Of a stretch of DNA of 45,403 bases, positions 3,888 through 10,269 are shown piece after piece. A model generated the notes under the pieces. That model was not told where the DNA came from and ran no database searches. It saw only the letters and a list, made by a program, of their open reading frames with translations. Both the position numbers and the translations under genes were made by a program. Numbering within the stretch: the first letter of the stretch is position 1; each line of letters opens with the position of its first letter. The stretch spans positions 1 through 45,403 of the forward strand of contig JAFXIE010000046.1 of the NCBI GenBank assembly GCA_017533425.1, given 5' to 3'. This stretch comes from Clostridia bacterium (GTDB lineage: Bacteria; Bacillota; Clostridia; Oscillospirales; QAMX01).

Positions 3888-4445
3888 TTGCTCTGGAAAC
3901 TCTTTTTAACCTTCTTTAAGATCGGCGCCTTCACCTTTGGCGGCGGCTATGCCATGATCTCTCAGATCCGTGAGGTCGTGGTGGAGAAAAACGGCTGGAT
4001 CTCCGATGATGAGCTCACGGAGATCATCACCGTCGCAGAATCCACTCCCGGTCCCATCGCCATCAACATGGCCACCTATGTGGGCTACAAAAAGAAGGGT
4101 GTTCTCGGCAGCGCCTGTGCAACCCTCGGCGTTGTTCTCCCCTCCTTTTTGATCATTCTTGCCATTTCCTATTTTCTCGAGGCCTTCATGGCCAACAAAT
4201 ATGTGGCCTACGCCTTCACCGGCATCCGCGTGGCCGTTGCCTTCCTCATTATGCGCGCTGCCGCCGGTATGTTTAAGAAGATGAAGAAAAAGCCTCTGCC
4301 CTGCATTCTTTTTGGGCTCGTCTTTGCCGCAATGATCGCCATGGAGCTCTTTGCTGTCTCCGCAAGCCCTGTCTTCTTTATCCTTGGCGGCGGCGCGGTC
4401 GGCATCATCGCCTATGCCGCCCTGCCCGGAAAGGAGGAGCGCTGA
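3888..4445 (+). CDS. Chromate transporter (CHR family), first half-size subunit
   Basis: This 185-residue membrane protein is a single CHR domain. It has the amphipathic start FKIGAFTFGGGYAMI, the signature AESTPGPIAINMATYVGYK (about residues 47-65) and then several hydrophobic helices. Short CHR proteins come as adjacent pairs that act together as one transporter; the family is named for chromate efflux, but the native substrate in gut Clostridia is uncertain. The TTG at 3888 is the only usual start codon after the in-frame stop at 3882 and has AAGGGAG (3871-3877) ten bases upstream. The stop overlaps the ribosome binding region of the second subunit, whose ATG is one base on. Confidence 0.9.
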   Translation: MLWKLFLTFFKIGAFTFGGGYAMISQIREVVVEKNGWISDDELTEIITVAESTPGPIAINMATYVGYKKKGVLGSACATLGVVLPSFLIILAISYFLEAFMANKYVAYAFTGIRVAVAFLIMRAAAGMFKKMKKKPLPCILFGLVFAAMIAMELFAVSASPVFFILGGGAVGIIAYAALPGKEER

Positions 4446-4446
4446 T

Positions 4447-5040
4447 ATGGCATTTATTCTGAAGCTTCTCTACATCTTCTGGGAATTCTTCCAGATCGGG
4501 CTTTTCACCTTCGGCGGCGGCTTTGCCATGATCCCTCTGGTCAAGGAAACGGTGCTTTCCAACAACTGGCTGACCGAGGCCGATTTCTACAGCTTTATCG
4601 GTGTCTGTGAGTCCACCCCCGGCCCCATCGCCATTAACATGGCCACCTATGTCGGCGCATCCCAGGCCGGTCCCCTCGGCTCGGTGTTTGCAACCCTCGG
4701 CGTTGTGCTTCCCTCCTTCATCATCATTCTGCTCATTGCGGCGCTGCTCAAGGGACTGACGGAGACCAAATGGTTCAAGGGCTTTCTTTCCGGCGCCCAG
4801 CCAGTCATTACGGCGCTGCTTCTTTCCACCGGACTTGTGATGCTTGCCAAAGCCCTCGGATATGGCGGAAATTTTGCCTTCACGCCAAATTATGAGGGTC
4901 TGGTGATCTTCGCCCTGCTGCTGGCAATTGTCGGCGCAGCGAAGAAGTTTTTCAAAAAGAAGCTCTCCTCCATCCAGCTGATCCTCATCTCCGCCGTGCT
5001 TGGCATCGCGGTGTGCATGATCGGCGAAGTTCTCAAATAG
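4447..5040 (+). CDS. Chromate transporter (CHR family), second half-size subunit
   Basis: The 197-residue protein is a paralogue of its upstream neighbour: FFQIGLFTFGGGFAMIPL at the start and CESTPGPIAINMATYVGAS in the middle, followed by further hydrophobic helices. Its closeness to the first gene (one base between stop and ATG) and the paired nature of short CHR proteins argue for a heteromeric inner-membrane transporter. The ATG at 4447 is preceded by AAAGGAGGA (about 4430-4438); an open frame extends upstream to 4351 but overlaps the first gene and lacks family similarity. A hairpin at 5057-5093 follows. Confidence 0.9.
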   Translation: MAFILKLLYIFWEFFQIGLFTFGGGFAMIPLVKETVLSNNWLTEADFYSFIGVCESTPGPIAINMATYVGASQAGPLGSVFATLGVVLPSFIIILLIAALLKGLTETKWFKGFLSGAQPVITALLLSTGLVMLAKALGYGGNFAFTPNYEGLVIFALLLAIVGAAKKFFKKKLSSIQLILISAVLGIAVCMIGEVLK

Positions 5041-5046
5041 AGCTTC

Positions 5047-5093
5047 AAAAAAAGCAACAGGCAGCACAGCCATTTCGACGCTGTGCTGCCTGT
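5047..5093 (-). terminator. Terminator between convergent genes
   Basis: A 14-bp perfect stem (5057-5070 with 5080-5093, core AGGCAGCACAGC) lies between the chromate-transporter stop (5040) and the ECF stop (5098). Seven A at 5047-5053 give a T run on the minus strand, so it mainly ends the B12-controlled operon. On the plus strand only a weak T run (GATTTTAT) follows. Confidence 0.85.
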
Positions 5094-5097
5094 GATT

Positions 5098-5634
5098 TTA
5101 TACGGATGATCCCATGAGCTGCCGGTAGAGTCTGTTCATAAGATTCGTCAGGGGCAGAATGAGCAATCCGCCTACAAGGTTTCCGATCCCGTGGGTAATG
5201 TCATAGCCGATGCCCGAGGCGATCCAGGCCAGGGGGCTGACCCCCAGCAAGGTTGCTGTCAGAGGAGCTCCGAGGACTCCGAACAGAAGCCCGTGCACGC
5301 CGGAGACCGCCGGATAGACCACAGCCTTCAGCGCCGTCGGCATCTTTTTGGGCAGAATCATCACCGCGGCCCAAAGGAGGGCCCACGCATAAAGATAGGG
5401 TGCCCAGTAGGGCGAAAAGCCAAAATACAGCCCATCCAGAAACACAAAAATATAGATGGGGATCAGCGCCTTCCAGCGGAAGGTCAGCGTGAAGACAACG
5501 ATCAGAGTGCCGATGAGATGTATATTCGGAAGCACTGCCATCAGCACCACGGAAACAAACATGATCACGCCAAGCATCGGGAAGAGCACCAACTCCCGAA
5601 GAAGCAGCCGCTTGCTGCCGGCACTATTTTTCAT
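5098..5634 (-). CDS. ECF transporter S component, probably cobalamin-linked
   Basis: The 178-residue, very hydrophobic protein has about five or six membrane segments (starting VLFPMLGVIMFVSVVLMAV) and aromatic loops (FGFSPYWAPYLYAWALLW), like substrate-binding S components of energy-coupling factor vitamin transporters. These use a shared EcfA/A'/T module encoded elsewhere. The ATG at 5634 lies 11 bases inside the end of the upstream lipoprotein gene, so translation is probably coupled; no clear ribosome binding site precedes it. The longer frame reaching to 5676 would only add residues inside the upstream gene. The cobalamin riboswitch ahead of the operon suggests that the cargo is B12 or a corrinoid precursor; this is inference. 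Confidence 0.75.
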   Translation of the reverse strand: MKNSAGSKRLLLRELVLFPMLGVIMFVSVVLMAVLPNIHLIGTLIVVFTLTFRWKALIPIYIFVFLDGLYFGFSPYWAPYLYAWALLWAAVMILPKKMPTALKAVVYPAVSGVHGLLFGVLGAPLTATLLGVSPLAWIASGIGYDITHGIGNLVGGLLILPLTNLMNRLYRQLMGSSV

Positions 5635-6055
5635 ACACAAAGCGATATGTCGCCGCGGAATCAATGGGGGTCGCATCCGCGCCGGTCAGCGCGTATTGCC
5701 CGTCGATATAAAATGCCCAGTAAGCCTTATCCAGGGTATAATCCGCCCGGATGCCGTTGACCTTTTTGATGTAGATTCCATGCTCGCTATCGTCCCCTTC
5801 GATGAGCTTATGCTCCAGAAGCGCCTCACCGACGGTCTCTTTATCGGTATGCACCGTAAAGGTGACCGACTGATCCTCAAGCACGACCTCCACCTTTACG
5901 GTTTTCGCGCCGCTGCCGAATTCTGCATCCTTGCTGTAGGCAGCACTTTCCCACAGGCCATCGTCAATCCCCTTCTCCGCACAGGCGGTAAGGCAAAGAA
6001 GCAGGGATAGCGCAAGTACAAGAGACATCGCCGAGATTACAATTCTTTTCATCAT
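5624..6055 (-). CDS. DUF4430 (transcobalamin-like) lipoprotein
   Basis: The start codons ATG-ATG-ATG at 6058, 6055 and 6052 follow AGGAAG; the second has the best spacing. The 143-residue product begins with a lipoprotein signal (MKRIVISAMSLVLALSLLL, lipobox LTAC), so it is anchored to the outer face of the membrane. The rest is a DUF4430 domain: VKVEVVLEDQSVTFTVHTDK, VGEALLEHKLI, GIYIKKVNGI, YWAFYIDGQYALTGA. It resembles the C-terminal domain of intrinsic factor and transcobalamin. With the B12 riboswitch upstream and an ECF S component overlapping downstream, a role as extracellular corrinoid-binding protein is likely. An open frame continues upstream to 6166 but runs through the riboswitch and is not coding. 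Confidence 0.85.
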   Translation of the reverse strand: MMKRIVISAMSLVLALSLLLCLTACAEKGIDDGLWESAAYSKDAEFGSGAKTVKVEVVLEDQSVTFTVHTDKETVGEALLEHKLIEGDDSEHGIYIKKVNGIRADYTLDKAYWAFYIDGQYALTGADATPIDSAATYRFVYEK

Positions 6056-6083
6056 CATTTCTTCCTTTCTGATTTCAAAAGGA

Positions 6084-6114
6084 TAAAGCAAAAGCACCCT
6101 CCATGGAGGGTGCT
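6084..6114 (-). terminator. Expression-platform terminator of the cobalamin riboswitch
   Basis: A perfect palindromic stem AGCACCCTCC/GGAGGGTGCT (6093-6114), read on the minus strand, is followed by TTTTGCTTT. It lies between the riboswitch core and the lipoprotein start, as expected for transcriptional control by B12. Confidence 0.85.
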
Positions 6115-6119
6115 CAAAA

Positions 6120-6340
6120 TATGCACAGCAGACGAAAGGGGAACATACCCCCCTCTTAGAATGCACATCTCCCCCATTTGCCCAAGGAAACTTCTACGCA
6201 TCGCAGACCGATGAGCATTCCGACTTGACCTGACTTCCTGCAGGAGTTACGGTAATGGCTGTTGCCGCGGACTTTCACCGCGATTTCCTCATCCCCGGAC
6301 GGGGAATTTCCCGCCCGACAACGCAAAAATAGATTTGTGA
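6120..6340 (-). ncRNA. Cobalamin riboswitch
   Basis: The minus strand of this 300-base non-coding stretch contains GCGGTGAAAGTCCGC (about 6283-6269), GCCATTACCGTAACTCC (about 6258-6242), GTCAGGTCAAGTCGGAATGC (about 6233-6214) and, further on, paired G-rich and C-rich segments. This order (GGTGAAAnTCC, then an A-rich L5-like segment, then the CAGGnC/AGTCGGAATGC end) is that of cobalamin riboswitches. It begins after a promoter at 6371-6399 and ends in a hairpin terminator at 6084-6114 ahead of the DUF4430 lipoprotein. High cobalamin is therefore expected to switch the operon off. Boundaries are approximate. Confidence 0.85.
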
Positions 6341-6370
6341 TGATCTGCGTTTATTCTTTTGTACGGTTAA

Positions 6371-6399
6371 AATATACCACATCCGGCGGGAAAAATCAA
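6371..6399 (-). promoter_or_regulatory. Promoter of the B12-controlled operon
   Basis: Minus strand: TTGATT (6399-6394), 17-base spacer, TATATT (6376-6371). It overlaps the last codon of the MATE gene and lies about 35 bases before the riboswitch core. Confidence 0.65.
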
Positions 6400-7896: not shown

Positions 7897-10020
7897 TTAT
7901 CGTTGATCGCACAGAAGCTTTGTCAATCCGTCAAGATCCAGCGGGCGGCTGAAGAGATAGCCCTGGCCGACATCGATGCCCATATCGCGCAGCATATCGC
8001 GCTGGGTAGCATTTTCAATGCCCTCGGCCACCAGATGCACGCCGCCAAGCTCCCGCATCATACGCACGGTATTTTTAAGCACCGTGCGGGTGCGGGCGCT
8101 GCTCTCGATATCCGCCACCAGAGAGCGGTCAAACTTGATCTCATCAAAGGTAGCCACAGAAAGCAGGGAGAGATTGGAATGCTCCCGGCCGAAATCATCC
8201 ATGGAAAAGCGGAAGCCGGCGCCGCGCATTTCCTGCATCAGCGTCTCCAGCACATCCATGCCGATTTCAGAAACATTCTCCGTCACCTCCAGGGTGAGAA
8301 GCTCGGCAGGAACGTCATATTGACGACAAAGGTCAGTCAGCGTTTGAACAAAATCGGGCAACAGCAGGGTGCCTCGGCAGAAATTGACCGATATCGGCAG
8401 CCGGATTCCCCGGGCGGCAAATTTTGAGACGGTACACAGCGCTTCCCGCAGGGCAAAGAGATCCAGATGAATAACCGCGCCCATGGCCTCATACCGGGGC
8501 AGGAAGCGGGCAGGGGGAAGCACCGTACCATCGGCATCGATCCTGCGGATGAGCGCCTCGGCACCGGCAAATTCTCCGGAAGAAAGATGGAATTTCGGCT
8601 GATACCAGAGGGTAAAGCGGCCGTTTTCAATCTCACGCAGCACATCCACCGCCGCCGCTACGGCACGTCTTCCCTCCTGCAGGGCCATGTAGTAGCTATA
8701 CTGCTTGACGGAGTTCATGCGCTCGTCGGCACGGGACAGCAGCGCATCGATATCAATGCCGTCATCCCCCCAGGAATAGCCGAGGGAAACGCGGAAATCC
8801 CTCTCCGCCGCGAAGGCTGCCTGCAGCTCGGCAAGTTTAGCAAAAAAGGTTTCATTGTCCATATCCGGGCAGGGCGCGATGAAAAGATCTCCGCCCAGGC
8901 GGTAAATGGGCACACCGAGAACATCCCGCAGAATGTGGGCGGTGCGGATAATGACCTCATCGCCCCGGGTATAGCCAAAGCGCTTATTGATATCATCCAG
9001 GCCGTCGATATCCGCCTTGATGAAGCCGAGGCTGCGGAAATGGGTCAGATAGCGGCGCTGCAGCTCCTCAATATAGGAATTTCGATTGAATACGCCGGTC
9101 AGGCGATCGACATAGGAAAGATCGTGAAGCTTTGCCAGCAGACGCTTACGTTCGATCTCAGCACCAAAGAAGTCCGCGGCAGCCCGGAGAATGCGATCCC
9201 GGGTTTCGAGATTGAGGCGAGGATTGTCCAGTACGATAAAACCAAAGAGATCACGGTCATGCAGCTCGCTGCCGCCGTACAAGGGCACCGCCGCCACAGA
9301 ATCCAGACCAGACACATCAAAAAAGCGCTGAAGCCCCGCACTGACGGGAGTCGCTTCCGCCCGGTCAAAGAAAAATTCTCTCTCCTGCCGTAGAATTGCG
9401 TACATCTCCCGGGTTGCCGCAGGGAGCAGCTCCCCCGTTACGCCGGAATTGATATTTTCAAACCCGGGGCGAAGCCAGGCAAAGGTGGTCAGATAGCTTC
9501 CGTTGACGGAATCGTATTCGATAATAAGCGCCCGGTCGGAGCAGTAAAAATCGCCAAGCACTTCAAGAAAATGCTCCGCGGCCAGGGCAATGTCATCTCC
9601 CATGGTCAGCACCCGCGCCAGCTCCAGCAGCACGGAATCCACCGGAATCTGGTTGTTCAGCCGGCGATAATCATCAGAGACCATGCGCACGACCTCAACC
9701 CGGCAGCGGCGGCCTTCAATCTCGCGCAGATAGATTTCCTGCACCGTCCATTTCTTCAGCATCGGGTTGTAGCGGGTCTGGTAAAAGGTGCGGTCGGGGG
9801 TCAGCTGCAGGTTATTGCACCAGCTGCAGGGAATCTGGCTATCTGCCAATACATCGTGGCAGATTTTTCCTCGGTATTCCTCGGGCGAGGTAAGGCCGTA
9901 GAGCTGCATTGCTGCATCAGACATGTGCAGAAGCTCATGGGAATCAATATCCACAATATAGGCGTGTGTACCGGCGGTATTGACAAGAAGGTGCTCATAA
10001 CCGTTGAAATCCACAACCAT
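7897..10020 (-). CDS. PAS-GAF-GGDEF-EAL cyclic-di-GMP signalling protein
   Basis: The 707-residue cytoplasmic protein has four parts: a PAS-like sensor (about 1-115) with a CxxC pair (Cys65, Cys68), a GAF-like domain (about 130-300), a GGDEF domain (about 310-440) and an EAL domain (about 450-705). The GGDEF signature is GGDLF at residues 376-380, so cyclase activity is doubtful. The EAL domain keeps EALIR (Glu488), VNFCRG, LEVTEN, DDF (Asp608-Asp609), IKFDRS and VAEGIEN, so it is probably a working c-di-GMP phosphodiesterase, although the loop after DDF reads GREHS rather than GxGxS. The ATG at 10020 has GAGG only three bases away; the GTG two codons later is better spaced. It has its own promoter and terminator, so it is a single-gene unit. 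Confidence 0.93.
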   Translation of the reverse strand: MVVDFNGYEHLLVNTAGTHAYIVDIDSHELLHMSDAAMQLYGLTSPEEYRGKICHDVLADSQIPCSWCNNLQLTPDRTFYQTRYNPMLKKWTVQEIYLREIEGRRCRVEVVRMVSDDYRRLNNQIPVDSVLLELARVLTMGDDIALAAEHFLEVLGDFYCSDRALIIEYDSVNGSYLTTFAWLRPGFENINSGVTGELLPAATREMYAILRQEREFFFDRAEATPVSAGLQRFFDVSGLDSVAAVPLYGGSELHDRDLFGFIVLDNPRLNLETRDRILRAAADFFGAEIERKRLLAKLHDLSYVDRLTGVFNRNSYIEELQRRYLTHFRSLGFIKADIDGLDDINKRFGYTRGDEVIIRTAHILRDVLGVPIYRLGGDLFIAPCPDMDNETFFAKLAELQAAFAAERDFRVSLGYSWGDDGIDIDALLSRADERMNSVKQYSYYMALQEGRRAVAAAVDVLREIENGRFTLWYQPKFHLSSGEFAGAEALIRRIDADGTVLPPARFLPRYEAMGAVIHLDLFALREALCTVSKFAARGIRLPISVNFCRGTLLLPDFVQTLTDLCRQYDVPAELLTLEVTENVSEIGMDVLETLMQEMRGAGFRFSMDDFGREHSNLSLLSVATFDEIKFDRSLVADIESSARTRTVLKNTVRMMRELGGVHLVAEGIENATQRDMLRDMGIDVGQGYLFSRPLDLDGLTKLLCDQR

Positions 10021-10185: not shown

Positions 10186-10269
10186 GCCGGTGTGTCGGAA
10201 TTGGTAGACGACCGCGACTCAAAATCGTGTGCCTCTGGCGTGTGGGTTCGAGTCCCACCACCGGCACCA
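10186..10269 (+). tRNA. tRNA-Leu, anticodon CAA
   Basis: The acceptor arm GCCGGTG pairs with CACCGGC and is followed by discriminator A and an encoded CCA (10267-10269). The D loop reads GAATTGGTAGACG. The anticodon stem CGCGA/TCGTG (with one G-U pair) encloses the loop CTCAAAA with anticodon CAA at 10220-10222, reading UUG leucine codons. A long variable arm (GCC/GGC) is present, as in class II tRNAs, and the T arm is GTGGGTTCGAGTCCCAC. The gene is a single unit with a promoter upstream and a hairpin terminator immediately downstream. Part of its 3' end is repeated 195 bases further on. Confidence 0.97.

Follow-up and report, generated by a model that had tools for sequence, protein, structure and literature searches.

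A class-II cobalamin riboswitch heads a probable cobamide uptake operon of the cbrS–cbrT kind in a Clostridia bacterium

The identification of B12 transport systems in gut bacteria has been described as an unsolved problem (PMC6593275). Burroughs et al. (2007; PMC1796856) gave the beta-grasp superfamily its name, reported that genes for transcobalamin-like proteins generally occur together with CbiO/CbiQ-like genes in hosts that usually lack key enzymes of B12 synthesis, and proposed that such proteins scavenge B12. The closest described system is the nrdJ–cbrS–cbrT–pduO cluster of Lactobacillus delbrueckii (Santos et al. 2018; PMC5997447), for which CbrT-type B12 transport with a shared energy-coupling factor (ECF) module has been shown: CbrT is reported to bind cobalamin with a Kd of ~9 nM and cobinamide with a Kd of 36 nM and to transport both with ATP, and ECF-CbrT transports B12 in proteoliposomes. 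CbrT shows B12 binding and transport in the absence of CbrS, so the L. delbrueckii system does not strictly depend on the lipoprotein. In Lactobacillus intestinalis, the gene order is nrdJ, DUF4430, S component and cob(I) adenosyltransferase; given that the DUF4430 gene occupies the place of cbrS, we infer that cbrS of L. delbrueckii is a DUF4430 gene. The annotation ‘Additional lipoprotein component of putative cobalamin ECF transporter’ is quoted in a further study (PMC9963975), which also mentions a DUF4430 protein beside rtpR and does not say that both entries refer to a single gene. No experiment on the function of the lipoprotein came up in the literature searched, which lay largely outside subscription journals.

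We analysed a 45,403-nt stretch of DNA from a Clostridia bacterium (the window; contig JAFXIE010000046.1), which contains a related operon on the minus strand within positions 5098–6399. A promoter-like site, a riboswitch, a terminator hairpin, a lipoprotein gene and an S-component gene follow one another in the order described in an earlier note on this DNA; every part named there is present, the promoter being the weak one. This promoter-like site (TTGATT, 17 nt, TATATT; 6399–6371(−)) was found by consensus scan with 9/12 matches, and 1.2 sites this good are expected by chance. Downstream lie the core of a class-II cobalamin riboswitch aptamer (6205–6301(−)) and, between the aptamer and the start codon, an intrinsic terminator (6082–6115(−)) that consists of a hairpin at 6115–6092 (GAGCACCCTCCATGGAGGGTGC) and a T-rich tail. 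The first gene (5624–6052(−)) encodes a CbrS-like DUF4430 lipoprotein of 142 amino acids and the second (5098–5634(−)) a CbrT-family ECF S component of 178 amino acids; the two share 11 bases (5624–5634), exactly the overlap given in that note. We consider it probable (roughly 85%) that the operon is a riboswitch-controlled cobamide uptake unit of the cbrS–cbrT kind. The flanking genes, two for chromate transporters (3888–5040(+)) and one for a MATE transporter (7787–6396(−)), belong to families unrelated to the operon. A GGDEF-EAL protein is encoded at 7897–10020(−) and a tRNA at 10186–10266(+); both are near the operon, and no link to it was seen.

The S component was assigned through its relatives. 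As a single sequence it matched no Pfam or NCBIfam transporter model and no PDB entry. A profile of eight relatives had 6FNP_A as its only PDB match (E 3.7e-20), which is CbrT of L. delbrueckii. The same profile matched CbrT-like proteins of Lactobacillus and Enterococcus (E 1e-15 to 1e-24), to which the S component is ~18–24% identical, and weakly matched the S components encoded in dedicated B12 ECF operons. The structural model (pLDDT 92) has an S-component fold of about six membrane helices, with the S components FolT, BioY, PanT and RibU as best structural matches (Foldseek probability 0.63–1.00, TM 0.40–0.65, weak E-values). Profile and fold agree with the original reading of this protein as an ECF S component. 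Such a protein might import a B12 precursor (cobinamide, or alpha-ribazole as in CblT) instead of a complete cobamide, given that cobalamin riboswitches have been reported on cblT genes too (PMC9600662) and that CbrT also transports cobinamide (PMC5997447). We regard import of a precursor as very unlikely: the profile that detects CbrT-like proteins so strongly did not pick up CblT of plasmid pMF1298-5 even with filters disabled and E-values as high as 100 allowed, and CobS, which is needed to complete a precursor, was not found in the genome (86% complete). The identification as CblT, the alpha-ribazole S component, was rejected on the basis of the profile result.

The lipoprotein matched PF14478 (DUF4430) with E 8.6e-8 and 33 bits, above the cut-off of 23.8, and consists of a signal peptide with the lipobox LTAC (residues 1–24) and a transcobalamin-type beta domain (about residues 47–142). 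Its AlphaFold model (pLDDT 90) resembles 3u7z, a protein of R. gnavus (Z 15.3), and transcobalamin, intrinsic factor and haptocorrin (Z 10.9–12.1 over 93–97 residues); the structural matches include 5np4, the isolated human beta domain with bound cyanocobalamin. The next unrelated fold scored Z 6.0, so the relation to transcobalamin holds, and with it the kinship to transcobalamin and intrinsic factor that had been suggested earlier. In transcobalamin, two domains contact B12, and the beta domain is one of them (PMC1796856); the lipoprotein lacks the second, the alpha domain, by which the opposite face of B12 is held.

We further surveyed the pair in 80 relatives from species genomes, the best-scoring 80 of at least 566 related stretches and therefore a sample of near relatives, not a census. 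The lipoprotein gene lies directly upstream of the S-component gene in 74 of the 80; one of the remaining six (L065) is cut by a contig end, and five (L039, L061, L077, L083 and L091) have an S component without an adjacent lipoprotein. A lipobox was recognized by pattern in 68 of the 74 adjacent lipoproteins, and inspection of the other six showed a cysteine at the expected place. In one genus of the window's own family (L014–L016), the DUF4430 protein carries a membrane anchor at its N terminus and no lipobox cysteine. Given the linkage and the nearly universal lipobox, the lipoprotein seems to be co-selected with CbrT. This bears on the role of the lipoprotein, which might only be accessory, storing or protecting extracellular cobamide or binding another partner, while CbrT captures the imported cobamide alone. 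We consider a purely accessory role plausible, if less than likely: CbrT of L. delbrueckii alone binds B12, ECF-CbrT transports it in proteoliposomes (PMC5997447) and some relatives lack the adjacent lipoprotein, but the constancy of the lipobox-bearing neighbour (74/80) and its beta-domain fold, shared with a domain by which transcobalamin contacts B12 (PMC1796856), argue for a more direct part. Hand-over of cobamide from the lipoprotein to CbrT is our tentative reading, to which we give not quite an even chance.

A cobalamin-riboswitch core was present upstream of 62 of the 72 relatives that have at least 300 upstream bases, against 0.006 expected per region. RF00174 scored above its cut-off in relatives L013–L016, and Rfam confirmed this family in all 16 of the core-bearing class-I loci scanned. 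Riboswitches for other ligands in front of relatives, which the earlier note had put forward as a test of its reading, were not seen; class-I or class-II cobalamin riboswitches occur instead. The pair is widespread in Clostridia and Lactobacillales, and in the latter its neighbours are nrdJ and the adenosyltransferase gene. A riboswitch or pair that serves another ligand, for example a metal, would suit the title of 3u7z, ‘putative metal binding protein’; the riboswitch cores of the relatives, the neighbouring nrdJ and adenosyltransferase genes in Lactobacillales and the CbrT-like S component all speak against it, and we consider it highly improbable. No relative was found in the viral contigs searched. 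A conjugative plasmid of Enterococcus faecalis, pNBZ135-cfr-102K (L102), carries a B12 module that encodes a CbrT-like S component and a DUF4430 protein together with an adenosyltransferase and a B12-dependent ribonucleotide reductase. The earlier suggestion that the arrangement would be unusual is not supported: the pair is common in Clostridia and Lactobacillales, and was predicted in the literature (PMC1796856). The cbrS–cbrT type of arrangement is already known.

The riboswitch itself belongs to class II. A permissive cmscan matched RF01689 (AdoCbl-II) at 6205–6301(−) with 34.0 bits (E 2.4e-6), which does not reach the gathering score of 36.5. The riboswitch was therefore missed by the whole-window scan at curated Rfam thresholds, in which the sole match was a tRNA. 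RF00174 (class I) had no match anywhere in the window's own genome, and this identity was dropped in favour of RF01689. The cobalamin riboswitch that had been proposed is thus present as a B12 switch, but its family is RF01689 (class II) and not RF00174. We then derived a further model from an alignment of 36 sequences, among them that of the window; it places the riboswitch together with its 3′ hairpin (CUUGGGCAAAUGGGG) at 6152–6310(−) as the single copy in its genome (E 3.0e-34, a score that is not independent because the sequence is part of the training set of the model). Across the alignment, the core is near-constant (GCAACAGCCAUUACCGU and GUCGGAAUGC), the 3′ hairpin is conserved (CUUGGGCAAAU) and helices P3, P5 and P6 are maintained with compensatory changes, which occur at 8 of the 21 consensus pairs. 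By analogy with solved cobalamin riboswitches, the 3′ hairpin is a candidate for the L13 kissing-loop arm. Relatives with the same core exceeded the RF01689 cut-off at 4 of 17 loci (38.7–44.8 bits), and the sub-group is mostly missed at the Rfam cut-off. The J6/3 motif GAAUGC presumably resembles that of the env8 class-IIa riboswitch, which we treat as a lead only; the env8 riboswitch prefers methyl- and aquocobalamin.

In the 30 genomes searched with the model from 36 sequences, 28 copies were found in 26 genomes, and in the single-copy genomes the copy is, by position, that of the cbrS–cbrT locus itself. One genome (G041) has three class-II copies (L120, L132 and L133), each preceding a DUF4430 lipoprotein gene; two of the three sit in near-identical surroundings.

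The two riboswitch classes differ in their expression platforms. Among loci L019–L098, we compared 36 class-II and 25 class-I loci and found an intrinsic terminator between aptamer and start codon in 32 of the former and 1 of the latter (p = 8e-12, with loci counted as independent and kinship ignored), against a background of 3.6% of shuffles. This contrast suggests that class-II loci are controlled by transcription termination and class-I loci by another mode, perhaps translational. At the leader in the window, the ligand would be expected to trigger termination, as is the general behaviour of riboswitches on uptake genes. Together with the riboswitch sub-group itself, this platform difference adds a modest new observation. 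With 28 genomes searched per riboswitch class, a cobalamin adenosyltransferase was detected in one genome of class II and in six of class I, a difference that is not significant in these 56 genomes (p = 0.10, kinship ignored); most of the 56 pair-bearing genomes searched had no detected adenosyltransferase.

To place the operon in its genomic setting, we examined the genome from which the window derives (1.9 Mb), which is only 86% complete, so that absences from it are weak evidence. It encodes MetH and, next to a methyltransferase-like gene, a second corrinoid protein, as well as one EcfT (PF02361, E 3.8e-46) that adjoins two ABC ATPase genes (ecfA). The second ECF ATPase gene (EcfA′; L018, G000:C151, ~4756–5640(−)) looks frameshifted near its start, which may reflect an assembly error or a real defect. 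Neither PduO-type nor CobA-type adenosyltransferases nor CobS were found in this 86% complete genome. The observation that no btuFCD lies near the operon held, and extends to the whole genome, in which, at 86% completeness, a FecCD-type permease (BtuC; PF01032) was not found; a BtuFCD reading was rejected on this ground. The set of genes is consistent with an organism that uses cobamide, obtains it by import and requires its methyl form.

Within the same family, 14 of 21 genomes have one DUF4430 match each, eight of which are cbrS–cbrT loci. In the stretches read, five of the six others have an EcfT- and an ATPase-type gene as neighbours; at the sixth (L139), a partly resolved stretch shows the start of an ATPase-like frame. 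Four loci (L148–L151, in genomes G003, G009, G018 and G012) are dedicated operons that encode EcfT, a fused ATPase and a protein with an alpha/alpha toroid and a DUF4430 domain, the full transcobalamin-like architecture. RF00174 lies upstream in three of these four, and two of the operons headed by RF00174 carry an S component. With cbrS–cbrT loci and dedicated toroid operons in one family, transcobalamin-like proteins so serve two kinds of B12-regulated ECF operon there.

We propose the following model for the operon. At low intracellular cobamide, the class-II riboswitch would let transcription through the terminator, and repression by the ligand would be relieved; read-through would yield the products of two coupled genes, a surface lipoprotein and a CbrT-like S component. 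The latter would bind cobamide in the membrane and be energised by a shared EcfA–EcfA′–EcfT module encoded elsewhere in the genome, with the single module found as the probable partner. The lipoprotein would most likely catch cobamide outside the membrane and concentrate it at CbrT or pass it on. That it is a true extracellular binding protein of an ECF transporter and docks on CbrT, so that B12 would be captured in two steps in parallel to animal transcobalamin, under a class-II sub-group that fits cells without adenosyltransferase, is a possibility that we put slightly below the balance point. If true, capture and hand-over by the lipoprotein would provide an ECF transporter with an external binding protein, and the pair offers a concrete case in which to ask whether such a transporter can use one. 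Under cobalamin riboswitches, the lipoprotein–CbrT pair forms a standard unit across many of the uncultured Clostridia, of which many come from herbivore gut samples.

Compared with known systems, the operon is closest to ECF-CbrT of L. delbrueckii: the S component belongs to the same family by profile (E 3.7e-20), is likewise solitary and would likewise share an ECF module, and the DUF4430 gene directly upstream has its counterpart in L. intestinalis, a close relative of L. delbrueckii. Unlike in the nrdJ–cbrS–cbrT–pduO cluster, the pair stands alone behind a class-II riboswitch, with neither nrdJ nor an adenosyltransferase gene adjacent. Its riboswitch shares core sequence and helices with RF01689 (E 2.4e-6), but in the sub-group J6/3 is constant (GUCGGAAUGC), the 3′ hairpin is conserved and the score usually falls below the Rfam cut-off. 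With BtuFCD, the unit would have in common the combination of an outside binding protein and a membrane B12 importer, although the membrane and binding proteins are unrelated. The role proposed here for the lipoprotein, partner of a cobalamin ECF transporter, is the same as in the annotation quoted in PMC9963975, which is an annotation alone. The lipoprotein also falls in the same beta-grasp clade as the SLBB proteins of Burroughs et al. (PMC1796856), which are surface-exposed and predicted to scavenge B12 together with ECF genes. Those operons have dedicated CbiO/CbiQ and often an alpha/alpha toroid, whereas the operon in the window has a single small domain and a lone S component; the dedicated form is present in sister genomes of the same family.
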